Positions 6,579-62,472 of a DNA stretch of 64,000 nt are shown here, piece after piece; the first letter of the stretch is position 1; every line of letters begins with the position of its first letter. This DNA comes from Flavivirga spongiicola (GTDB lineage Bacteria; Bacteroidota; Bacteroidia; Flavobacteriales; Flavobacteriaceae), in contig NZ_JAUOEO010000001.1 of the NCBI RefSeq assembly GCF_030540825.1, positions 2,081,001 through 2,145,000 of the forward strand, in the 5' to 3' direction. The position numbers and the translations under genes were made by a program. The notes below the pieces were generated by a model. That model saw nothing but the letters and a program-made list of their open reading frames with translations, did no database searches and was not told where the DNA came from.

Positions 6579-7079
6579 ATGAAAAAACTGGCGTTCATTT
6601 TATTAGTCTTACCATTCTGTATTTTTTCGCAGGATATGAATAATGAAAAGCTAAACACCATTTATACAACTGTTAGTGATTCCATTCAAGGAAATCCTGG
6701 TGCCTGGCAATTTTTTATTAAAGAAATTCCGTTAATGTCTATTACGGATACAAATCATAATAGAATGCGAATTATGTCTCCAATTGCAGATTCAAATAGT
6801 TTGACTGATGACTTAATTAAGGCAGCTTTGGTTGCTAACTTTCATACTGCTCTAGACGTCAAATATGCCGTTTCAGACGGTGTATTGTGGTCTATATTTA
6901 TTCATCCTTTAAAAGAATTATCTGAAAACCAGGTAAAAGATGCGGTTAGTCAAGTGTATTATGCACATATTAACTTTGGAACAACGTTTGCGAGTACTGC
7001 TTTAACATTTCCGGGTAGGATAAGTGGTGGTGATAACATTGAGAAAAAGAAAGAAAAACCTAAGTTTAAAAAGTTATAG
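6579..7079 (+). CDS. Secreted protein of unknown function
   Basis: A 166-residue protein beginning MKKLAFILLVLPFCIFSQ, a Sec signal peptide with cleavage probably after the FSQ end, so the product is periplasmic or outer-membrane associated. I use ATG 6579; a TTG 36 bp upstream would put extra residues before the signal peptide. The mature part alternates helices and strands (MRIMSPIADSNSLTDDLIKAALVANF, then WSIFIHPLKELSENQVKDAVSQVY), a layout like YbjN/secretion-chaperone folds, but this is only suggestive. The C-terminus is lysine-rich. Confidence 0.7.
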   Translation: MKKLAFILLVLPFCIFSQDMNNEKLNTIYTTVSDSIQGNPGAWQFFIKEIPLMSITDTNHNRMRIMSPIADSNSLTDDLIKAALVANFHTALDVKYAVSDGVLWSIFIHPLKELSENQVKDAVSQVYYAHINFGTTFASTALTFPGRISGGDNIEKKKEKPKFKKL

Positions 7080-7084
7080 ATTAA

Positions 7085-7170
7085 AAACAAAGGAACAAAA
7101 AGTAATGTATTTTGTCATTCAGAAGGAGGAACGACTGAAGAATCTAAACTTACTTTTTGTTCCTTTGTTT
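7085..7170. repeat. Dispersed palindromic element (family D), copy 1
   Basis: Perfect 21-bp inverted arms at 7085-7105 and 7150-7170 enclose a short stretch with the family core GTCATTCAG and GAAGAATCT. It lies just 3' of the secreted-protein gene and could act as a terminator in either direction. A related fragment with GCTCTGAATGACAC follows at 7228-7285. Confidence 0.75.
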
Positions 7171-7292
7171 ATTGCATAAACATAATAGTTACTGCACACC
7201 TTTAATTTTCATTCGATGTATAGGTTATGAGATTTTTCGACTCCGACAACAGTCGGAATGCTCTGAATGACACTTTTAGACCGCTTAGTACA

Positions 7293-7820
7293 TCATATCT
7301 CTTCAGTAGTCGTTTCATCATCGGGAATCTTTAGACTTGTTTTAAAATTTGGGAATATCTGCTTCATCATAGCTTCATTTTTTAATTGTTTAGCTTCCAT
7401 AAAATACCAAAATTTTGCTTCACTATTATAAATTCCAAACAAGTAGCTTTTAGATTTTATTCTCATACCACTCATAATCATCTGGTTGAAACCTTCTATA
7501 TAACAGCGATACTGATCATCCTCAAAAACAATATCAGAAACGCCCAAAACATTAGCCTTTTCAAAAACAAAACCGCTTTCTTTCATAGTATTAAACGTTG
7601 AGTTTAATAATTCAATGGCTTTTTCTTTACCTCCCATTAGTTCCAAAACACTAGGATAGGTATAGTCCAAAAGCTTATCAAAATCCATTTTAAGGGTGGC
7701 TTGCGAAGCAATTTTAGCATCTCTTAAAGCCGATGCTTTTAATGTTTCGGTAGATTGGGCAAAAGAAATGCTACTACAAAACAGCAGTAGCATTAAAACA
7801 GTTGAAGTTATTTTATTCAT
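7293..7820 (-). CDS. Secreted protein of unknown function
   Basis: A 175-residue protein with a Sec signal peptide (MNKITSTVLMLLLFCSSISFAQ, cleavage after FAQ). The mature part begins with a helix-rich stretch (DYTYPSVLELMGGKEKAIELLNSTF) followed by strands (DQYRCYIEGFNQMI, SKSYLFGIY, KFWYFMEAK), an alpha+beta layout resembling NTF2-like proteins. Its start overlaps the end of the SPFH gene by 8 bp, so the two are translationally coupled and the protein may serve the same envelope process. Confidence 0.75.
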   Translation of the reverse strand: MNKITSTVLMLLLFCSSISFAQSTETLKASALRDAKIASQATLKMDFDKLLDYTYPSVLELMGGKEKAIELLNSTFNTMKESGFVFEKANVLGVSDIVFEDDQYRCYIEGFNQMIMSGMRIKSKSYLFGIYNSEAKFWYFMEAKQLKNEAMMKQIFPNFKTSLKIPDDETTTEEI

Positions 7821-8820: not shown

Positions 8821-9501
8821 ATGAAAAAACAACTTATTTTATTAGTAGTCATTGTAACCTGTTTTGTTACAACAAATTTTGCACAAAAAGGAAATTATCG
8901 AATTTCTAATGGCTTTGGTATTACTGGTGGTATTACCAAATTTGATATTACAACTAGTAACTTTGTTACCAAACAAGGGGATGGTTTTTTAGGTGGATTA
9001 TCAGCCATGGTTGACATTCCTCATCAATGGTACAATATGAGTTTTGGTATGCAATTATCTGAAAGCAATATTGAAATTTTAGGAAGACCTGCTATATCTA
9101 GTACCGAAGAAACTTTTATTGAATATAAAATGTTTGCTGCTCAAATAGCATTTTTAGGTCATATAAAAATAATTCCAGATTATGTTACTATAGATCTAGG
9201 GCCGATGCTGCAATATAACAGCAAATTAGAATTTAAAAACAAAGTCCAAGAAGGTTATTATATAAATAACTACACCAATTTATCTGCGGAAGATATTACT
9301 AATATTTCGCAATTTAATTTGAATGGTGCTATAGGTGCTTCTGTAGGTATAAGAAACGTGAAACTTAAGGCACAGTATCTTTATGGTTTCACAAATATTT
9401 TGAAAAAGCTTGAAAATGAAAATTTAGATGCAACTGGAGGTAACGCCCGTTTTAAAGGGAACCAAACCATGTTGGTTTTAGGTGCTATTGTTTCATTTTA
9501 G
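8821..9501 (+). CDS. Outer-membrane beta-barrel protein
   Basis: A 226-residue protein with a Sec signal peptide (MKKQLILLVVIVTCFVTTNFAQ). The mature chain alternates short amphipathic strands and turns (ISNGFGITGGITKFDI, FLGGLSAMVDIP, YNMSFGMQLSES) and ends in LVLGAIVSF with a C-terminal aromatic, as expected for an eight-strand PorT-like outer-membrane barrel. No specific ligand or partner can be read. It is transcribed divergently from the SPFH gene. Confidence 0.8.
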   Translation: MKKQLILLVVIVTCFVTTNFAQKGNYRISNGFGITGGITKFDITTSNFVTKQGDGFLGGLSAMVDIPHQWYNMSFGMQLSESNIEILGRPAISSTEETFIEYKMFAAQIAFLGHIKIIPDYVTIDLGPMLQYNSKLEFKNKVQEGYYINNYTNLSAEDITNISQFNLNGAIGASVGIRNVKLKAQYLYGFTNILKKLENENLDATGGNARFKGNQTMLVLGAIVSF

Positions 9502-9508
9502 GTTTTAA

Positions 9509-9613
9509 TTCCTGCGAAGGCAGGAATCTTATAAAAGAAAAGGTATTAAACCTGAGATTCAGTTAAACTAATAAATTGAAATCACAAAAGTGGATTCCTG
9601 TCTTCGCAGGAAT
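9509..9613. repeat. Inverted repeat between convergent genes (family D-like)
   Basis: ATTCCTGCGAAGGCAGGAAT at the left and GATTCCTGTCTTCGCAGGAA at the right are each internally palindromic and inverted to each other. The same CTTCGCAGGAATGACA motif occurs inside the family D element at 46.2 kb. The pair lies between the convergent barrel-protein and gltX genes and may terminate both. Confidence 0.65.
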
Positions 9614-9621
9614 GCCAAAGC

Positions 9622-11199
9622 TTATAAAGAAGCGATCGCTGCTTCAATCCGTTTAACGCTTTCTCCTTCACCAATCATAAACATAATATCGAATACATCA
9701 GGGCCCTGTAAAGCACCTACTAATGCTAAACGTAATGGCATCATTACTTTACCAAAACCAATCTCATTGTCTGTGATCCAACCCTTAATTTTGGTTTGAA
9801 GATTTTCTACTGAAAAATCTTCAATGGTGTTAATTATTGAAACCAATTCCAGCATAAGTTCTTTGGTGCCTTCTTTAAAGGCCTTTTTTGATGCTTTTTC
9901 ATCATAAGTTTCTGGCGCTTGAAAAAAGAAATGACTTAAACCCCAAAAATCTGAGATGAATGTAGCACGTTCTTTTATGAGTCCAATCACCATAGAAATA
10001 TAATTCACATCTACATCATTATGAGGAGTAGATTGCTTCGTTTCGCTCACAATAATATCTAGTTTTTCATCAACAATGGGTTTAAACAACTCGGCCAAAT
10101 CATCATGACTCTGTTCTTGCATATAATGATGATTAAACCACTTTATTTTATCAGGGTCAAAACGAGCACCAGATTTATTAACACGACTTAAATCAAAGGC
10201 TTCGATAAGTTCATCCAGATTAAAAATTTCCTGTTCGGTTCCTGGGTTCCAGCCTAAAAATGCTAAGAAATTCACCATAGCTTCAGGAAAGTATCCATCT
10301 TCTTTATAACCTCTTGAAATATCATTACTTTTAGGATCTGTCCATTCTAAAGGAAATACAGGAAACCCTAACTTATCACCATCACGCTTGCTTAATTTTC
10401 CTTTTCCTGTTGGTTTTAAAATTAATGGTAAATGTGCAAATTCTGGAACCTCCCAACCAAAAGCCTTATATAATTGATAGTGTAATGCTAAAGATGGCAA
10501 CCATTCTTCACCACGAATAACATGTGTTATTTCCATTAAATGGTCGTCCACAATATTCGCTAAATGGTAGGTTGGCATACCATCACTTTTAAACAATACT
10601 TTATCATCTAAAATATTAGTATCTATTTTAATATCACCACGAATAATGTCTGTTAAATGGAGCGTTTCATCTTGTGGAGATTTAAATCGAATCACATAAT
10701 CATCACCGGCATCTAATTTCGCTTTAACTTCTTCCGCGCTAAGCGATAAAGAATTACTCAATTTTAAACGGTTATGCCAATTATATATAAACGTTTTCCC
10801 TTTTGCCTCATGATCTTTTCTATGAAAATTTAATGTTTCAGCAGTATCAAAAGCATAGTAAGCATTGCCAGATGCAATTAAATCATTGGCGTATTGTTTA
10901 TATAAATGTTTTCGCTCACTTTGCCTGTAAGGACCAAATGTTTCGTTTTTCGAATTTGCACTGAACGCAGTCGAAGTAGGCGCTTCATCAAAAAGAATGC
11001 CGCACCAATTAAGCGCATCAACAATGTACTTTTCCGCGCCTTCAACATATCTCGTTTGATCGGTATCTTCTATTCTAAGAACAAAAGTTCCTTGATGTTT
11101 TTTTGCAAATAAATAATTGAATAAAGCGGTACGAACACCACCTATATGTAATGGTCCCGTCGGGCTAGGCGCAAAACGCACACGAACGTTTTTGGTCAT
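9622..11199 (-). CDS. gltX: Glutamate--tRNA ligase
   Basis: A 525-residue cytosolic class I synthetase. HIGH motif is FAPSPTGPLHIGGVRTA (residues 7-23) and the KMSKS equivalent is GKLSKRDGDKLG near residue 255. A -7-like TATCTTTG lies on the minus strand at 11218-11225. It is about 20 residues longer than related enzymes. The segment TSTAFSANSKNE, between LFDEAP and FGPYRQSERK, is encoded by DNA (about 10941-10982) containing TGAACGCAGTCGAA, close to the TGAGCGTAGTCGAA of dispersed family D repeats. An in-frame repeat fragment seems to have been absorbed into the active-site domain. Confidence 0.95.
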   Translation of the reverse strand: MTKNVRVRFAPSPTGPLHIGGVRTALFNYLFAKKHQGTFVLRIEDTDQTRYVEGAEKYIVDALNWCGILFDEAPTSTAFSANSKNETFGPYRQSERKHLYKQYANDLIASGNAYYAFDTAETLNFHRKDHEAKGKTFIYNWHNRLKLSNSLSLSAEEVKAKLDAGDDYVIRFKSPQDETLHLTDIIRGDIKIDTNILDDKVLFKSDGMPTYHLANIVDDHLMEITHVIRGEEWLPSLALHYQLYKAFGWEVPEFAHLPLILKPTGKGKLSKRDGDKLGFPVFPLEWTDPKSNDISRGYKEDGYFPEAMVNFLAFLGWNPGTEQEIFNLDELIEAFDLSRVNKSGARFDPDKIKWFNHHYMQEQSHDDLAELFKPIVDEKLDIIVSETKQSTPHNDVDVNYISMVIGLIKERATFISDFWGLSHFFFQAPETYDEKASKKAFKEGTKELMLELVSIINTIEDFSVENLQTKIKGWITDNEIGFGKVMMPLRLALVGALQGPDVFDIMFMIGEGESVKRIEAAIASL

Positions 11200-46312: not shown

Positions 46313-47566
46313 ATGTTAAAAAAAGATCATAAATTAAATCAATGGCTTTGGAAATGGCACTTTATTGCCGGGCTTATTTCTTTACCATTCGTTATTATTT
46401 TGGCCATTACCGGAGGTATCTATTTATTTAAAGATGCTTACGAAGCGCCAAAACAAGCACATATAAAAGTTGTTGAGGTCGAAGGCAAGGCTATGTCCTA
46501 TCAAGAGCAATGGCAACTAGCAAAACCATTATTACATAAAGCACCTAATACCATGGTGATTCCTACGGAAGCAAATCAGGCAACGGCTTTTACCTCGGGG
46601 ATGTTTAGTCATAAAAACAGTGTATATGTAAACCCATATAAGGCTGAGGTTACCGGGCGTATCAGTCCTAAAGATTCAGATATGTATACCGTTAGAAAGT
46701 TGCATGGCGAATTGCTATTGGGTCAATTTGGTACCAAAATCGTAGAGCTTATTGCCAGCTGGCTTTTTGTATTAATTATTACGGGTATTTATGTGTTTTG
46801 GCCTGCTAAAAAAGAAGGCATCAAAGGGTTTTTTAAGGTTCGTTTTAAACAAGGAAAGCAGATACTTTTTAGAGATTTGCATACCGTTTTTGGCTTTTGG
46901 ATTTCTATTTTATTACTCATGACCTTAGCGGGTGGGATGCCTTGGACCGATGTTTTTGGGGATAACTTTAAATGGGTACAAAGGGTTACAAATACGGGTT
47001 TTCCTAAAACCTGGAATGCCAGAGGTTTAAAATCGACTATTGAAGGAAAGGCTATTTCTTTGGATGAGATGGTAAGACTTGCCAAGTCCATGAATTTAAA
47101 AGGTGAAGTGAGCATAGGCCTCCCAAAAGATGAAAAGGGCGTGTATAGCATTTACAATACGACCTTTGATTTGGGAACACAGAAACGTTTTCACTTTGAT
47201 CAATATTCGGGAAAACAATTAGTAAATCATAACTGGGAAGATGTTGGTATTTTAATGCGAGGCCGTATGTGGTTTATGGCATTTCATCAAGGACAGTTTG
47301 GTACCTGGAATTGGGTGCTTATGATTGGTGTAGCCGTGTTATTAGCCTTTATGTCTATTGCCGCCTTAATATCGTATATAAAGCGTAAACCACATAAAAA
47401 ATGGGGCACACCAAAAGTTCCTTTGCAGTTTAGAGCAGGTTATGGCATTATGGCTTTAATTGTTTTACTAGGTATTGTTTTTCCGTTGTTTGGTATCAGT
47501 GTATTGGTTATTTTGTTTGTAGAATATTTTAGAAGAAGGATTAAGAAAGAAAAAGTAGAGGTTTAG
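46313..47566 (+). CDS. PepSY-domain membrane protein (iron-uptake type)
   Basis: A 417-residue inner-membrane protein with four main helices (about 20-42, 147-167, 195-217 and 335-360) and a C-terminal pair, with PepSY domains in the periplasmic loops (SVYVNPYKAEVTGRI; RFHFDQYSGKQLVNHNW). Conserved His near the helices (NQWLWKWHFIAGL, LHGELLLGQFG, MAFHQGQFGTW) could ligate haem, as in proposed ferric reductases. It follows the TonB receptor and is flanked by inverted family D repeats. Confidence 0.9.
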   Translation: MLKKDHKLNQWLWKWHFIAGLISLPFVIILAITGGIYLFKDAYEAPKQAHIKVVEVEGKAMSYQEQWQLAKPLLHKAPNTMVIPTEANQATAFTSGMFSHKNSVYVNPYKAEVTGRISPKDSDMYTVRKLHGELLLGQFGTKIVELIASWLFVLIITGIYVFWPAKKEGIKGFFKVRFKQGKQILFRDLHTVFGFWISILLLMTLAGGMPWTDVFGDNFKWVQRVTNTGFPKTWNARGLKSTIEGKAISLDEMVRLAKSMNLKGEVSIGLPKDEKGVYSIYNTTFDLGTQKRFHFDQYSGKQLVNHNWEDVGILMRGRMWFMAFHQGQFGTWNWVLMIGVAVLLAFMSIAALISYIKRKPHKKWGTPKVPLQFRAGYGIMALIVLLGIVFPLFGISVLVILFVEYFRRRIKKEKVEV

Positions 47567-49337: not shown

Positions 49338-49518
49338 CCCGCTAAACTGCGTTTAGTGGCGGCAAACCAACTAAAAATGGCCAATCAGCAATATTATTAA
49401 CTTAAAATTTACCCCATAAAACCAACCAAATCTATCTCCAAAACCGTATTGTCTTCTCTTCTGTAAAAACTTTTTGTTATTTCCTAACTCTGTACGCCAC
49501 TAAACACAGTTTAGCGGG
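49338..49518. mobile_element. Module A, copy 1 (deleted RAYT element, 181 bp)
   Basis: Starts with the hairpin end CCCGCTAAACTGCGTTTAGT (24 bp from 49338) and finishes with its inverse (49495-49518; 23 of 24 identical). Between the ends it keeps, on the minus strand, the last 15 codons plus stop of a RAYT gene (encoding EDNTVLEIDLVGFMG), then jumps to the element's right flank. It is an internally deleted, non-autonomous copy of the element at 58348-59077. Confidence 0.85.
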
Positions 49519-50926: not shown

Positions 50927-50940
50927 AAAGCCCCCTCGCT

Positions 50941-51120
50941 CCCGCTAAACTGCGTTTAGTGGCGGCAAACCAACTAAAAATGGCCAATCAGCAATATTAT
51001 TGACTTAAAATTTACCCCTTAAAACCAACCTAATCTATCTACAAAACCGTATTCTCTTCTCTTCTGTAAAAACTTTTGTTATTTCCTAACTCTGTACGCC
51101 ACTAAGCACAGTTTAGCAGG
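50941..51120. mobile_element. Module A, copy 2 (deleted RAYT element, 180 bp)
   Basis: Left hairpin end at 50941-50964 and inverse right end at 51097-51120, with the same RAYT 3' coding remnant slightly decayed in between. It lies between two convergent genes, 14 bp from each, where its end hairpins can act as terminators. Confidence 0.82.
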
Positions 51121-51133
51121 AGTTGGGAGAGTT

Positions 51134-52734: not shown

Positions 52735-52745
52735 AAGAATTCTTA

Positions 52746-52935
52746 TTATACTTTGACTAAACGTCATATGGCGTTTATTTCGCTTATAATTGCCTAAATA
52801 TAAGAAGTTTATCCAAATATTTAGCAGATTTGCCTTACGAAACAAAAAACGACATCTAATTTTACTTAAATGTATCTTTTTAAGGAGCGTTATTTTTATT
52901 GGTTGGGAGTTGTAAGCTTTGAAGGTGTAGGTTTA
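52746..52935 (-). repeat. Module C, copy 1 (shared 5' sequence)
   Basis: Read on the minus strand it precedes the HNH gene start. The conserved core is GCCTAAATATA with TTTATTTCGCTTATAATTGC beside it on the plus strand; the outer part has CTAATTTTACTTAAATGTAT, TTATTTTTATTGGTTGGGAG and TTGTAAGCTTTGAAG, then runs into module A copy 3. Confidence 0.72.
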
Positions 52936-52943
52936 CCCCCGCT

Positions 52944-53022
52944 CCCGCTAAACTGCGTTTAGTGGCGGCAAACCAACTAAAAAAGGCCAATGAGTAATAT
53001 TATTAACTTAAAATTTACCCCT
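52944..53022. mobile_element. Module A, copy 3 (left part only)
   Basis: Left hairpin end at 52944-52967 followed by the element's inner left flank up to AAATTTACCCC; the RAYT coding remnant and right end are missing. It is joined directly to module B copy 3. Confidence 0.75.
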
Positions 53023-54739: not shown

Positions 54740-54765
54740 TTTGCAATTAAGGGTAATAATTGTGT

Positions 54766-54985
54766 AAATGTACTTTATGGTGTTTATTTCACATATAATT
54801 GCCTAAATATAGGAAGTTTATTTGAATACTTAACAGGGTTGTTTTTCAAAACAAAAAGCAACATCTAATTTTACTTAAATGTATCTTTTTTGTGGGTCGT
54901 TATTTTTATTGGTTGGGAGTTATAAGCTTTGAAGAGACCTGTGATTGCTGTATTACTTTTTGTTAAATCATCAATTTACCCCCCC
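54766..54985 (-). repeat. Module C, copy 2 (shared 5' sequence)
   Basis: Plus-strand reading: TACTTTATGGTGTTTATTTC, ATAATTGCCTAAATATAGGA, then ACTTAAATGTATC, TTATTTTTATTGGTTGGGAG and AAGCTTTGAAGAGACCTGTG. It lies upstream of the lipoprotein gene on the minus strand and abuts module A copy 4. Confidence 0.75.
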
Positions 54986-54988
54986 GCT

Positions 54989-55065
54989 CCCGCTAAACTG
55001 CGTTTAGTGGCGGCAAACCAACTAAAAACAGCCAATCAGCAATATTATTAACTTAAAATTTACTC
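54989..55065. mobile_element. Module A, copy 4 (left part only)
   Basis: Left hairpin end at 54989-55012, then the element's inner left flank to AAAATTTACT. The rest of the element is missing; a different spacer that ends in a cassette-like GTTGGCAGTA follows. Confidence 0.72.
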
Positions 55066-55190
55066 CACCAAGTCGCCAAATATAAAATTTGGTGTTTCAA
55101 TATTGAAGGTAAAGACAAAACATTATATTTGGCTTAGTTATAAACGTTGAGTTAGAGCTTACCCTCAGCCCTACGTTTCTTATACCCGCC

Positions 55191-56345: not shown

Positions 56346-56369
56346 AATGGATAATTTGACAGCCTCGCT

Positions 56370-56550
56370 CCCGCTAAACTGCGTTTAGTGGCGGCAAACC
56401 AACTAAAAATAGCCAATCAGCAATATTATTGACTTAAAGTTTACCCCATAAAACCAACCGAATCTATCTCCAAAACCGTATTGTCTTCTCTTCTGTAAAG
56501 ACTTTTTGTTATTTCCTAACTCTGTACGCCACTAAGCATAGTTTAGCGAG
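56370..56550. mobile_element. Module A, copy 5 (deleted RAYT element, 181 bp)
   Basis: Left end at 56370-56393, right end at 56527-56550. The RAYT remnant codes on the minus strand for EDNTVLEIDSVGFMG-like codons with few changes. The right end joins the outer part of module C. Confidence 0.84.
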
Positions 56551-56556
56551 AGTTGG

Positions 56557-56700
56557 GGTGTCTTACAAAACAAAAAGCGACATCTAATTTTACTTAAATG
56601 TATCTTTTTTATGGGTCGTTATTTTTATTGGTAGGGAGTTGTAAGCTTTGAAGAGGCCTGTGATTGCTGTATTACTTTTTGTTAAATTATTAATTTAATC
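56557..56700 (-). repeat. Module C, outer part only
   Basis: Has CATCTAATTTTACTTAAATG, ATTTTTATTGGTAGGGAGTT and GTAAGCTTTGAAGAGGCCTG but lacks the core next to a start codon. It lies at the 3' end of the gene at 56719, not upstream of a gene. Confidence 0.65.
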
Positions 56701-56718
56701 CCAAAATTTGTTCAATTC

Positions 56719-58220: not shown

Positions 58221-58247
58221 AGGTTGATCAAATTTGTGGTAACAATA

Positions 58248-58347
58248 GTATAAACATACTTTATGATGTTTATTCCACTTAAAGTTGCCTAAATATAGGA
58301 AGTTTATCTAATATTAAACAGGATTATCTTACAAAAGAAAAAACAAC
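58248..58347 (-). repeat. Module C, copy 4 (shared 5' sequence)
   Basis: ATAAACATACTTTATGATGT, TTGCCTAAATATAGGAAGTT and TATCTAATATTAAACAGG on the plus strand. It runs directly into the left end of the RAYT element. Confidence 0.72.
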
Positions 58348-59077
58348 CCCGATAAACTGCGTTTAGTGGCGAAAAACCAGCTAAAAATAGCCAATCAGCA
58401 ATATTATTGACTTAAAATTTATCCCATAAAACCAACCAAATCTATCTCCAAAACCGTATTGTCTTCTTGAAAATTCCTTGCGCTTGAATATTTCCAATCT
58501 ATTGGATTCGTTACAAATCCACTTACTACCGGATTATTATGTATATAATCTATTTTTTGCTTTATAACTTTTTCACTCCATAATTCTATTGGTTTGTTAT
58601 GATGTTGCCAAAATTGATATTTACTTCTTGTTGCATTCTTTTTCCCTGCTCGTTCAAATAGCCATAATAATAGTTCTTTGCGACTTTCTTGTGGGTTATT
58701 CTCTATAGTTTTTATTAATTCCCTTGCTGTATGTTTTTTAAAATCTCGTATCAATCCTGAGGGGTCTTCATCTGCCGACCTAAATATTAAATGCATATGA
58801 CTCGGCATAAAACAATAAGCATACAACTCCATGCCTTTCTCCTTTCTACAATAATCTACACTTTTCGATAAAATATTAAAATAAATTTGTCTGGTAAATA
58901 CATCTATCCAATTTATTGTAGTAAAACTTACAAAGTACAAACCCGAATTATTATGAAACTTATAATTTCTACTCATAGTTCTAAAATACTAAAAGCTCTT
59001 ATATTTCTATAAAAGCTTTGTAAAATAGTTTATTATTTTTCGCTCACTGTTGACGCCACTAAACACAGTTTAGCGGG
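58348..59077. mobile_element. Complete RAYT element (module A, autonomous copy)
   Basis: Left hairpin end at 58348-58371 and inverse right end at 59054-59077 enclose the whole RAYT gene. The left inner flank (CTAAAAATAGCCAATCAGCA and on) is shared with all module A copies, and the right flank resembles theirs. This is the presumed source or a close relative of the four shorter copies. Confidence 0.85.
58419..58976 (-). CDS. REP-associated tyrosine transposase (RAYT)
   Basis: A 185-residue single-domain Y1/HUH transposase related to IS200/IS605 TnpA. The HUH motif is MPSHMHLIF with His60 and His62; the likely catalytic Tyr144 is in KIDYIHNNPV, followed by the family motif WKYSSARNF. RAYTs cut and join single-stranded DNA at hairpin repeats. 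All motifs are intact, so the gene may be active. Its C-terminal 15 codons are the ones retained in the deleted module A copies nearby. Confidence 0.92.
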   Translation of the reverse strand: MSRNYKFHNNSGLYFVSFTTINWIDVFTRQIYFNILSKSVDYCRKEKGMELYAYCFMPSHMHLIFRSADEDPSGLIRDFKKHTARELIKTIENNPQESRKELLLWLFERAGKKNATRSKYQFWQHHNKPIELWSEKVIKQKIDYIHNNPVVSGFVTNPIDWKYSSARNFQEDNTVLEIDLVGFMG

Positions 59078-59184
59078 AGCGGGGAGTTGTAAGCTTAGAT
59101 GAGGTAGGTTTGTTCTATCGTTTTTTATAGTATCATTACGGTTTGGCTAAACTGTATTTTAATGCAATTTAGGTTTTGTTGTGT

Positions 59185-60462
59185 TTAGTTTTCTATTCCT
59201 GCTTTATATCTTTCTAAAGCTCTTGCTCTTGCAAATTTATGCTCAATTATAGGGTTCGGGTAATTTGATGTTCCCAATTCGGGAATCCATCTCTTTACAT
59301 AAATTTGAGAGGGATCAAACTTTTTTAACTGTTCTATTGGGTTAAAAATTCTGAAATAGGGAGCGGCATCACACCCTGTTCCTGCAGCCCACTGCCAATT
59401 TCCATTGTTTGATGACAATTCATAATCGAGTAATTTTTTTGCAAAATAGGCTTCTCCCCATCTCCAATCAATCAAAAGGTGTTTACATAAGAAGCCGGCT
59501 GTTACCATTCTCACTCTATTGTGCATATAACCTGTTTCATTTAATTCTCTCATTCCTGCATCTACCAGTGGGTATCCTGTTTTACCATGGCACCAAATCT
59601 CGAAATCTGTTTCATTATTTAACCATTGGATGCCGTTATACTTAGAACGAAAATTTTGACTTACTACTTTTGGAAAATGAAACAAAATCTGCATAAAAAA
59701 TTCTCGCCAAATCAGTTCACTTAAAAAGACGTCATCGCTATCTTGAAGTTTAGCTATAATTTGCCGTATACTAATGGTTCCAAAGCGAAGATGGGGGCTT
59801 AAATAACTGGTGGAATCAAGGTAAGGGAAGTTTCGAGTTTTGGCATAGTTGCTAATCTCATTCAATTTATATGGCTTTACAATGATTTTAGAACTTTTTA
59901 TTCTCAAATCCTTCAAGTTTGGAAAATGATGTTTTTCCTTATGAAATTTATTGAAGTTTACTTTTGGCAAAATGCTTTTTGGGGTATATACCTTGAGCCA
60001 TTTATTTTTATAAGGAGTGAAGACAGTATAAGGGGTGCCATCACCCTTTAAAACTTCAGATTCCTCATGAATCACTTGATCTTTAAAGCTTATGAGGTTT
60101 ATGTTGCTTATAGATAATAAACTCTTAATCTTTTGATCTCTTTTTATGGCATAGGGCTCATAGTCCTTATTGACATATACATTTTCTATCGTATAAGTTT
60201 CGATAAGGTCCTTAAAAACGTCTTCTGGTTTTCCTTTGTAGATTAAAATCGAAGCATTGTGCACTTGTAAACTTTGATTTAGCTTCTTAAGCGTTTGATA
60301 TATAAAATTTACGCGTGGGTCATCATCAGGTAATTCGTTTAGAATATTTTCATCAAAAATAAAAAGGGGTAAGATATTATGGTTTGCATTCATAGCAGCA
60401 TTCAATGCTGTGTTGTCTTCCAACCGTAAATCTCTTCTAAACCAAAACAGATTAATCTTCAT
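59185..60462 (-). CDS. Deoxyribodipyrimidine photolyase/cryptochrome family
   Basis: A 425-residue flavoprotein that repairs UV dimers with blue light. The N-terminal Rossmann-like antenna domain starts INLFWFRRDLRLEDNTALNA; the C-terminal FAD domain has GMRELNETGYMHNRVRMVTA, then WRWGEAYFAKKLLDYELSSN and NGNWQWAAGTGCDAAPYFR. A class I CPD photolyase is likely. It is the last gene of the SDR-TspO-photolyase operon (3 bp after tspO). Confidence 0.93.
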   Translation of the reverse strand: MKINLFWFRRDLRLEDNTALNAAMNANHNILPLFIFDENILNELPDDDPRVNFIYQTLKKLNQSLQVHNASILIYKGKPEDVFKDLIETYTIENVYVNKDYEPYAIKRDQKIKSLLSISNINLISFKDQVIHEESEVLKGDGTPYTVFTPYKNKWLKVYTPKSILPKVNFNKFHKEKHHFPNLKDLRIKSSKIIVKPYKLNEISNYAKTRNFPYLDSTSYLSPHLRFGTISIRQIIAKLQDSDDVFLSELIWREFFMQILFHFPKVVSQNFRSKYNGIQWLNNETDFEIWCHGKTGYPLVDAGMRELNETGYMHNRVRMVTAGFLCKHLLIDWRWGEAYFAKKLLDYELSSNNGNWQWAAGTGCDAAPYFRIFNPIEQLKKFDPSQIYVKRWIPELGTSNYPNPIIEHKFARARALERYKAGIEN

Positions 60463-60465
60463 ACA

Positions 60466-60921
60466 TTAATTGTAAAACAAAATATAAGCGTTCAACGATG
60501 TTGCTATGATAAGCCAAGCAAAATAAGGGATTAAAAGAAGTGTTTTAATCCTGAGTTCCTTCCAATAGTTAAAAAATAAGTAAGCAATAAGAAGTGTAAG
60601 TGCTAAAATACAGATTAAAGCTGCTGTAACAGCATGAAAATAAAAGAAAAGCGGACTCCACCCGACATTTAGAATCCATTGAATGCTAAAAAGTATACGC
60701 TTTCTTTTTTGATTGGCCGAATTGAAAAGGTACGCCAAATATAAAGCGAAACAGATCATAATTGTAGTCCAAGCAACTCCAAAAACCCAACCAGGTGGTG
60801 ACCATGGCGCTTTGTTCAACTCTTGATACCAATCTGAAGAGACAGCATCACTAGTGAATATGCTTCCAAGACCTAATCCAATGAAATTAATGAAGAGGAA
60901 AAAAATAATGCGTTTAATCAT
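60466..60921 (-). CDS. tspO: TspO/MBR family tryptophan-rich sensory protein
   Basis: A 151-residue inner-membrane protein with five helices. Conserved parts are WYQELNKAPWSPPGWVFGVAW, with the loop before helix 2, and WNVGWSPLFFYFH-like NVGWSPLFFYF in helix 3. TspO binds porphyrins and responds to light and oxygen. It overlaps the end of the SDR gene by 8 bp and lies 3 bp before the photolyase gene, a common light-stress grouping. Confidence 0.92.
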   Translation of the reverse strand: MIKRIIFFLFINFIGLGLGSIFTSDAVSSDWYQELNKAPWSPPGWVFGVAWTTIMICFALYLAYLFNSANQKRKRILFSIQWILNVGWSPLFFYFHAVTAALICILALTLLIAYLFFNYWKELRIKTLLLIPYFAWLIIATSLNAYILFYN

Positions 60922-62338
60922 TTGAGGTTGTTAATTTTCTAAGCATCCCCTTAAAAATTAGACTATGAAAAGGTAATACGGTATACCAATAAAGCCTTCC
61001 TGATATTCCTAAGGGCCTAAAGGTGGCTGTTTGTATTAACGCTCCATTTACTATATTAAATTCAAGCCAGGCTTCGCCAGGCAGCTTCATTTCTGCATAC
61101 AGTAATAAGCGTCCTTCGTTCTTATTAGCATATAAAACCCGCCAAAAATCTAAGGCATCACCTGCTTTTAAGCTGTTATGGTTGGTTCGTCCTCTTCTAA
61201 GTCCAACGCCTCCTAATATTTTATCGATAAAACCTCTTGTTCTCCATAACCAATTGCAATAATACCAACCTGATTCTCCGCCAATACGCCATATTTTTTC
61301 AATACAGGCTTCTTCGTTTTTAAATGGCTTTATTCTTTGATCTTTAAAGCAGCCAAAAGTGGGTACTTGAATATGGTCTGATATATTGTTGCTATTGCTA
61401 CTACTTACATAGGCATCTTTCCAACTGGAAACAATGTCGTTTGATTCTATTTTTCTGAAAGCATTGTTAACAGTTTCTTGGTAGCTAATTGGAGTTACCT
61501 CTAAAACTTGATTAATTTTGTTGTCTCTACATATAACTTCAACCTTCATACTGTTGACGAGTGCTACTGCAAGTTTGTAAGAAGTGGATGTTACAAAATA
61601 AAGCCAGTAGGAAGATAAACGAGGAGTCATTACTGGAATGGTGTAAATTTTTCGTTTCAAGCCTCTTGCCTTACTAAAACCTAAGAGCATTTCTTTATAT
61701 GAGAGTATATCTGGACCACCGATGTCAAAATTTTGATTAAAGGTTTTCGCGTTGAAGATGCACTTAGATAATAAGGAAATGACATCGGCAATACCTATGG
61801 GTTGGCACCTCGTTTTTAGCCATTTCGGTGTAACCATAATGGGAAGCTTTTCAACCAAATCTCTTAAAATTTCAAATGAAGCGCTACCCGATCCAATTAT
61901 AATTCCTGCTCTTAACGTCGTACAATTATAACGCCCTTTACTAAGTTCTAATTCTACGGTTTTTCGTGATGTGAGATGATTGGATAATTCAGATTCATTC
62001 ACAATGCCACTTAAATAAATAATGTGCTTAACATTGGTTTTATTTAATGCATTTCGAAAATTAATGGCAGACTCTTGCTCAAGTGTTTGATAATTTGCTG
62101 ATGCAGACATGGAGTGCACCAAGTAATAAGCACCATCAATGTCATGTGGGATATTATTCAAAGAGTCACTATCCAAAAGATCATTTTCAATAACTTTAAC
62201 CTTATCCCGTAAAGAACTTGAGACATTAAATCGATCTGAATCTCGCACACAGCAAACTACTTCGTGTCCTTCCTTAACCAAAACTGGTAAAAGCCTTTTC
62301 CCGATATAACCCGTTGCTCCTGTTAGTAGAATTTTCAT
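60914..62338 (-). CDS. SDR-family NAD(P)-binding protein with DUF2867 domain
   Basis: A 474-residue protein starting MKILLTGATGYIGKRLLPVL, a Rossmann NAD(P) site (an upstream Met would add five residues). Residues about 1-290 form the atypical SDR domain (YYLVHSMSA, HIIYLSGIV, LRAGIIIGSGSASFEI); about 310-474 form a DUF2867 domain (WRIGGESGWYYCNWLWRTRG, PGEAWLEFNIV). It heads the operon with TspO and photolyase and is preceded by module C copy 5. Substrate unknown; such proteins often go with carotenoid and photoprotection genes. Confidence 0.9.
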   Translation of the reverse strand: MKILLTGATGYIGKRLLPVLVKEGHEVVCCVRDSDRFNVSSSLRDKVKVIENDLLDSDSLNNIPHDIDGAYYLVHSMSASANYQTLEQESAINFRNALNKTNVKHIIYLSGIVNESELSNHLTSRKTVELELSKGRYNCTTLRAGIIIGSGSASFEILRDLVEKLPIMVTPKWLKTRCQPIGIADVISLLSKCIFNAKTFNQNFDIGGPDILSYKEMLLGFSKARGLKRKIYTIPVMTPRLSSYWLYFVTSTSYKLAVALVNSMKVEVICRDNKINQVLEVTPISYQETVNNAFRKIESNDIVSSWKDAYVSSSNSNNISDHIQVPTFGCFKDQRIKPFKNEEACIEKIWRIGGESGWYYCNWLWRTRGFIDKILGGVGLRRGRTNHNSLKAGDALDFWRVLYANKNEGRLLLYAEMKLPGEAWLEFNIVNGALIQTATFRPLGISGRLYWYTVLPFHSLIFKGMLRKLTTSND

Positions 62339-62359
62339 TTTAATTAAACACAACTAATG

Positions 62360-62472
62360 TATAAACATACTTTATGGTGTTTATTTCACTTATCGTAGCC
62401 TAAATATAGGGAGTTTATCTGAACATTTGACAGATTTGTCTTATAAAACAAAAAACAATATCTGATTTTACT
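62360..62472 (-). repeat. Module C, copy 5 (shared 5' sequence)
   Basis: ATAAACATACTTTATGGTGT, GTAGCCTAAATATAGGGAGT and ATCTGATTTTACT on the plus strand. It lies 22 bp upstream of the SDR start, the only copy ahead of a conserved operon rather than an orphan gene. Confidence 0.72.

Follow-up and report, generated by a model that had tools for sequence, protein, structure and literature searches.

A RAYT element and its deletion derivatives in Flavivirga spongiicola: a putative source of REPIN-like miniatures in Flavobacteriaceae

RAYT element and short copies at the locus

In Flavivirga spongiicola, the analysed stretch of 64,000 nucleotides (contig NZ_JAUOEO010000001.1, positions 2,081,001 to 2,145,000; hereafter, the window) carries a gene for a REP-associated tyrosine transposase (RAYT; REP, repetitive extragenic palindrome) between inverted hairpin ends, together with short copies of the same element (Table 1). 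The preferred reading, with a probability of roughly three in four, is that RAYT moves as a unit and has given rise, by deletion, to families similar to REPINs (paired, inverted REPs forming hairpins), and that the window holds a Bacteroidetes-type RAYT (TnpA-REP, an HUH single-tyrosine transposase) and miniatures of this element kind. As judged by comparison of the copies, support for the miniature families is modest in the window and strong in relatives.

The window RAYT scores 95.4 bits against the NCBIfam RAYT equivalog model NF047646 (cut-off 80) and is matched by PF01797 in a Pfam profile search. Among solved structures, TnpArep 4er8 is nearest in sequence (E 1.6e-5), and the HMH and YIHNNP of the window protein align with its catalytic motifs (HuH and Y-x-x-x-NP). 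An earlier note, made from the window alone, had described an intact RAYT gene between hairpin ends. The gene and the inverted hairpins are there, but the left end has suffered damage: it lacks the CCCCGCT tag, one stem base is altered, and the predicted fold gives −2.7 kcal/mol vs −7.3 for the left end of a short copy. Having lost the left tag and a stem pair, the local RAYT copy may itself be immobile now.

Read by eye, recognisable ends have the form 5'-CCCC(T)GCT-N-S-CGC-stem-loop-GTGS, with the opposite end inverted. The GTAG/GTGG of canonical REPs was not seen 5' of the hairpin, where a conserved CCCCGCT-like tag stands. Nor are the copies dispersed through extragenic DNA as canonical REPs are. 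With a short copy as query, the complete 5.9-Mb genome gave 14 rows at E <= 1e-3, all within 2130338-2140084. A 21-base end pattern with <=3 mismatches matched 10 sites (6 left, 4 right), none of them outside a single 9.7-kb cluster, and its reversed control matched 0 sites. Dispersed REPs were thus ruled out for this genome at <=3 mismatches. The genome has one full RAYT of this type, and contigs C2 and C3 contain three more matches to the protein, all partial. The 19-kb contig C3 (4030-17703) repeats the Rhs and RAYT-remnant matches of C2 (327374-335635) with equal E-values, being a plasmid, a duplication or an assembly leftover.

The three two-ended short copies (miniatures a, b and e) and the two left-only ones (fragments c and d) were found where the earlier note had placed them. 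The miniatures have one common internal deletion, are 195 bp each with the outer tags included (the earlier figure was about 181 bp) and are about 94% alike, with 184 identical positions per pair. None of their six same-side flank comparisons matched. Since the flanks are mutually unrelated, the two-ended copies look transposed. Fragments c and d have 159 bp of flank in common at 85.5%, and shorter common stretches were found for the pairs a-c, c-e and d-e. The common leader flanks and nearly identical end base make c and d look segmentally duplicated and then decayed.

According to the earlier note, all three miniatures keep the last codons of the transposase, EDNTVLEIDLVGFMG. This holds for miniature a, which differs from the RAYT at 1/48 nt, synonymously; miniature e differs at 2/48 nt with a replacement of L by S, and miniature b at 5/48 nt, so that its remnant reads EENTVL*ID*VGFKG with two internal stops. 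The coding remnant therefore looks passive and is probably not a functional part of the miniatures. The emphasis formerly laid on the last 15 codons is not borne out, as these codons decay and other miniature families retain the first codons or both ends of the RAYT gene.

A chance match of the short copies to the RAYT element was ruled out by the alignment of a short copy to the left 120 nt of the element (94%, E = 1.1e-47). Over this left part the RAYTs of congeners are only 78-89% similar to the miniatures. The right part of the miniatures is 82% similar to the local RAYT. For the last 62 nt of miniature a, the alignment to the local RAYT has 53 identities, 6 mismatches and 6 gap positions; the RAYTs of G003 and G002 also give 53 identities and that of G010 gives 49, G010 and G011 being less close. 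A greater proximity of the miniature right ends to the G010 RAYT than to the local one is contradicted by this alignment. The window miniatures may descend either from this RAYT copy or from one closely related to it. The window family looks old, given the similarity of about 94% between miniatures and the damaged left end of the RAYT element.

Table 1. Positions of the RAYT element, its short copies and neighbouring features (window coordinates unless another sequence is named)
Feature	Position	Strand	Remarks
RAYT element: left hairpin end (degraded, tag lost), RAYT gene, right hairpin end	58348-59084	-	inverted-end pair
RAYT (TnpA-REP) gene, 185 aa	58419-58976	-	HuH (SHMH) and YIHNNP motifs; NF047646; PF01797
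RAYT element right end: hairpin and outer GGGAGCGGGG	59054-59084		
Miniature a: both ends, internal deletion	49331-49525		codons EDNTVLEIDLVGFMG* retained at 49409-49456 (-)
Miniature b: both ends, deletion as in a	50934-51128		coding remnant 51012-51059 (-), two internal stops
Miniature e: both ends, deletion as in a	56363-56557		remnant 56441-56488 (-), one replacement
Fragment c: left end only	52937-53020		adjoins leader repeat
Fragment d: left end only	54982-55066		adjoins leader repeat; terminates at almost the same base as c
Leader repeat copies	52736-52924, 54745-54981, 56558-56702, 58231-58342, 62358-62472; L032 1168-1254, 7762-7917		
Operon-like photolyase, TspO/MBR and DUF2867 genes	59185-62353		leader copy in front
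Variable hotspot: PepSY_TM gene to SulP-like transporter (from sequence reading)	46313-47566 to G000:C1:2153033		

Miniature families and full elements in relatives

Short-copy matches were found in 8/12 genomes of the genus Flavivirga. In G011, three miniatures of about 220 bp (221), 99.5-100% identical, show a deletion different from that of the window family: positions 1-41 and 563-737 of the element are retained, and hence the first codons of RAYT. These miniatures have exact CCCCGCTACC...GGTAGCGGGG ends and 0/6 same-side flank matches. A third deletion type occurs in G008 as two copies that are 97.9% alike over 480 bp (0/2 flank matches). In Flaviramulus (L152), three miniatures are identical at 146/146 bases, again with 0/6 flank matches. 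Formosa sp. Hel1_33_131 (G133) has five miniatures of 98-100% identity (240-244 identical positions of about 244 bp) at 19, 20.8, 1521, 1524 and 2669 kb, of the flank comparisons of which 1/20 matched (44 bp). The 12-base CTTCTGGATTAT stands at the deletion junction of this family; the full element has two copies of it (positions 163 and 610) and the miniature has one, which makes slippage or recombination between short repeats the likely origin of the deletion. As a separate observation, solitary right ends are present in congeners (L097 9898-9928, L100 1478-1532, L104 10279-10349 and L105 10036-10106), those of L097 and L100 coming after T-rich, terminator-like stretches.

A common junction is thus found in three copies in the window, three in G011, three in Flaviramulus and five in G133, with unrelated flanks; many copies with one junction were the pattern that the earlier note had named in support of a transposing family. 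The earlier proposal that RAYT deletion derivatives which include coding DNA can seed non-autonomous families is supported by these multi-copy sets. Comparison of the sequences shows that, on this evidence, independent deletions repeatedly became multi-copy miniatures in Flavobacteriaceae, with one junction per family. Structurally, the families resemble REPINs and miniature inverted-repeat transposable elements (MITEs) in having two inverted ends, no working transposase gene, uniform copies and unrelated flanks.

RAYT matches were surveyed in 199 Flavobacteriaceae genomes, 50 of which were RAYT-positive (match at E <= 1e-20; 71 rows). Near-identical full copies with exact ends are present in three of the sequences compared, whereas the window genome has one full copy. 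G133 contains three full 719-bp elements (99.6-100%, exact ends, 0/6 flank matches), and a second type is represented there by two 665-bp elements (99.85%, 0/2). G021 contains two 920-bp copies (97.8%, 0/2), and in L149 (Flavivirga jejuensis) the second copy is 100% identical over 630 nt (0/2). The RAYT loci differ within the genus Flavivirga: in G000 and G003 the element lies near the PepSY gene, G010 and G011 have one common locus, and in G002 it is elsewhere. These comparisons make some of the full RAYT elements look mobile as units. In L148, two similar tyrosine-recombinase-like genes (6856-7767 and 9461-10570; from sequence reading) lie beside a RAYT pair.

Among 80 named RAYT loci, each compared with 200 shuffles, inverted ends exceeding the shuffles were found in 46; the other 34 were excluded from the count of miniatures. 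Extra local matches (>=35 nt) occurred at 15 of the 80 loci, and 20/21 of them are oriented like RAYT; the single match of opposite orientation overlaps another one called in the RAYT orientation. This bias would fit one-strand chemistry and, equally, arrays growing in one direction.

Deletion derivatives with intact ends are known in IS200/IS605 and in bacterial MITEs, and the movement of IS200/IS605 is single-stranded and strand-biased. The present elements differ in having RAYT instead of TnpA-IS200 and inverted ends. Each element end is a stem-loop with an outer CCCCGCT tag, the two ends being inverted as in REPINs. In the proposed mechanism, the ends shared by full and short copies suggest that the RAYT protein recognises them as single-stranded hairpins and that it may mobilise both kinds of copy in trans, preferring one strand. 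Deletions would arise at short repeats, and the coding remnant would be passenger DNA. In the 9.7-kb window cluster, segmental duplication and decay apparently acted as well, giving the left-only copies.

Insertion sites, cassette boundaries and local duplication

Several observations weigh against mobility of this kind. A single match was found in 38 of the 50 RAYT-positive genomes; the RAYT pairs of G148 and G137 are merely 86-88% alike, and the G046 pair (97.6% over 1402 bp) covers more than one element. Local miniatures occur in just 5/46 loci with recognised ends, eight in number: three in Flaviramulus, one each in Psychroserpens, Aquimarina and Croceivirga, and two, weaker, in L209. A second G011 family (f2, 2 copies) has a common left flank (65 bp at 98%). 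The window copies are strictly local, a pattern that duplication could also give. In the strand-preference comparison, the GC skew of G133, used as a guide to fork direction, was weak, with 1/20 sampled stretches all N.

The insertion sites add to these points. Among the compared relatives no clean empty site for a single element was found, the target DNA being missing or exchanged. The RAYT of G003 sits in an intergenic repeat whose uninterrupted copies (one in G001, one in G003) hold 105-106 bp more, so about 105 bp of the target are missing; the window RAYT likewise lies in a leader copy (see below) without 51-52 bp of target. At the Formosa G133 copy r2, a TPR gene broken off at residue 22 lies on one side and the beginning of a different gene on the other. 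An intact 297-aa protein whose N-terminus differs matches the TPR piece at 99% identity, and an empty site for r2, the two sides of which are different genes, was not found.

A 5.5-kb Formosa island with three RAYTs (L117 4117-9766, G133) is absent from G221 (L240 12939-13003), a draft genome with 8% contamination; the flanks are 98.3-99.7% identical, the left edge of the island is a RAYT end, and its borders are a 65-bp direct repeat of the 3' end of a gene. A second difference between these genomes begins exactly at a RAYT right end, the compared flanks being 98.3-99.9% identical. Element ends often coincide with replaced, lost or exchanged DNA.

These coincidences bear on a tentative explanation, on balance improbable though compatible with the mobile-unit reading, in which gene cassettes (often Rhs tips and putative immunity genes) are delimited by RAYTs and miniatures as direct repeats, which serve as breakpoints for gain, loss or exchange by RAYT or RecA. 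Both G133/G221 differences are in its favour, as are the five intervals that the miniatures, fragments and RAYT of the window delimit, each 1.3-2.0 kb long and containing 1-2 genes. In G133 an Rhs fragment and the gene next to it stand between two miniatures, and in G211 the flanks of this unit lie about 0.24 kb apart; however, a missing unit is not in itself proof that the elements were the cause. When the m1-m2 and m3-m4 units are aligned with relatives, the alignments end 55-180 bp outside the miniatures, and the direct repeat of the G133 island would itself suffice for RecA. The quality of the G221 draft also counts against this explanation.

RAYTs are enriched downstream of Rhs cores (TIGR03696), which is a further point in favour of cassette boundaries. 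Within 5 kb of a core lie 15/55 RAYT matches vs 0.50 expected by random placement, in a count with rounded genome sizes whose rows are not independent, some being paralogues or orthologues. The count covers 36 genomes (32 of the 50 RAYT-positive ones and four congeners), the 55 matches being 51 of the 71 survey rows and four separately placed copies. Without exception, these 15 share the strand of the core and lie 1.3-2.5 kb downstream of it; they come from 12/36 genomes. The core motif was found within 5 kb in 12/80 named loci, a set overlapping the 36 genomes, and was always upstream and co-directional. Each of the five G133 miniatures has a same-strand Rhs core no more than about 2 kb away, and three of the six G133 cores have no miniature. 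In the window and the next 20 kb no Rhs core was found, which counts against the scheme. The association might possibly arise because dispensable tip and immunity DNA is where elements insert or survive, from read-through expression or from a role at cassette boundaries. The bolder form of the idea, that Flavobacteriaceae RAYTs and miniatures are co-oriented boundaries of exchangeable cassettes, above all Rhs toxin tips with immunity genes, gained or lost between the ends, is doubtful. If true, it would make RAYTs movers or scaffolds of the interbacterial-competition repertoire, not just makers of REPs.

Local segmental duplication followed by decay is the other alternative. According to it, the copies were multiplied together with leader pieces by homologous recombination and then eroded, with no transposition of miniatures in the window genome. 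The leader is a second repeat of <= ~240 bp, 75-93% alike between copies and mostly directly upstream of minus-strand genes; in the window genome it was seen only at 2.1338-2.1529 Mb (40/77 candidates scored), and congeners have it at the same locus. Because G001 has the leader in this locus but no short-copy match, the leader was ruled out as a part of the RAYT element. Its multiplication in the locus, the confinement of every copy to 9.7 kb and the common flanks described above for c and d and for the pairs a-c, c-e and d-e speak for duplication. Nevertheless, the two-ended miniatures a, b and e have no common flank, exact element ends recur amid unrelated flanks in G011 and L152, and the five near-identical G133 copies are scattered over their genome. 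Duplication as the whole explanation is accordingly considered unlikely. Selection on the 15 retained C-terminal codons, for instance for a regulatory peptide or the upkeep of an antisense transcript, is hardly credible: the region is present in three window copies, but the two internal stops of miniature b contradict it, and what remains of the gene in other families is a different portion.

Regarding the surroundings, the interval from the PepSY_TM gene to the SulP-like transporter measures about 24.5 kb in the window genome vs 6.6 kb in G003, with different genes. Besides RAYT, only DUF6161 and an acetolactate-decarboxylase match exceed the Pfam cut-offs among the cluster genes. The photolyase-TspO/MBR-DUF2867 block is largely present in G004 at 82-83% DNA identity.

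Relation to known systems and significance

The comparison with published systems refers to the consulted portions of the cited papers. The window RAYT resembles subclass 2.6 (Bertels group 5) of PMC6006769, being similar in YIHNNP, WQ, a length of about 179 aa, occurrence in Bacteroidetes and unusual hairpins beside the gene. Of the subclass motifs NH[LIV]H, WQ and YIH[QN]NP, the protein has WQ and YIHNNP, whereas its HuH is SHMH, as far as a comparison of motifs goes. Atypical secondary structures are described as flanking subclass 2.6 genes (PMC6006769), and the present ends may be these structures. In the same source, class 2 RAYT genes are characterised by low copy number, low identity between copies and no evidence of mobility, and RAYTs were stated to appear incapable of self-mobilisation (PMC3116915). 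Unlike in the description of subclass 2.6, a few genomes here hold near-identical full elements; as compared by sequence, these copies do not fit the published low-mobility picture for this RAYT subgroup.

The miniatures are similar to REPINs (PMC3116915) in having two inverted REP-like hairpins with a short spacer, in being non-autonomous and in the presence of a RAYT in the genome. They differ in being few and often clustered, as opposed to 430 doublets in one genome, and in a spacer of about 130 bp consisting partly of RAYT gene remnants. The outer tag occupies the place of GTAG in canonical REPs, 5' of the hairpin, with a different sequence. As in the Marinomonas REPtrons Ma and Mb, the repeats are concentrated near the transposase gene; the REPs of those REPtrons are GTAG-tagged, unlike here, and deletion derivatives are not mentioned in the consulted portion of that paper (PMC8266576). 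TIRYTs and TIRtrons (PMC3733652) likewise combine a tyrosine transposase gene with long inverted repeats and small repeat families, but the ends here differ from their consensus GGGGWSAS; most TIRYTs are placed in subclass 2.1 (PMC6006769). The literature search, with subscription papers and preprints outside its scope, turned up no report of RAYT deletion derivatives or of Bacteroidetes RAYTs.

That REPINs arose from an ancestral element is put forward only as a proposal in the portions consulted of PMC3116915 and PMC6006769. Under the mobile-unit reading, the repeated deletion derivatives would show the step from a transposon to a REPIN-like miniature in which parts of the transposase gene can still be read, and the origin of REP families would become testable in living genomes. 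The link between RAYT and Rhs suggests a second role. Ordinary mobile elements would thereby be tied to the short hairpin repeats of bacterial genomes.
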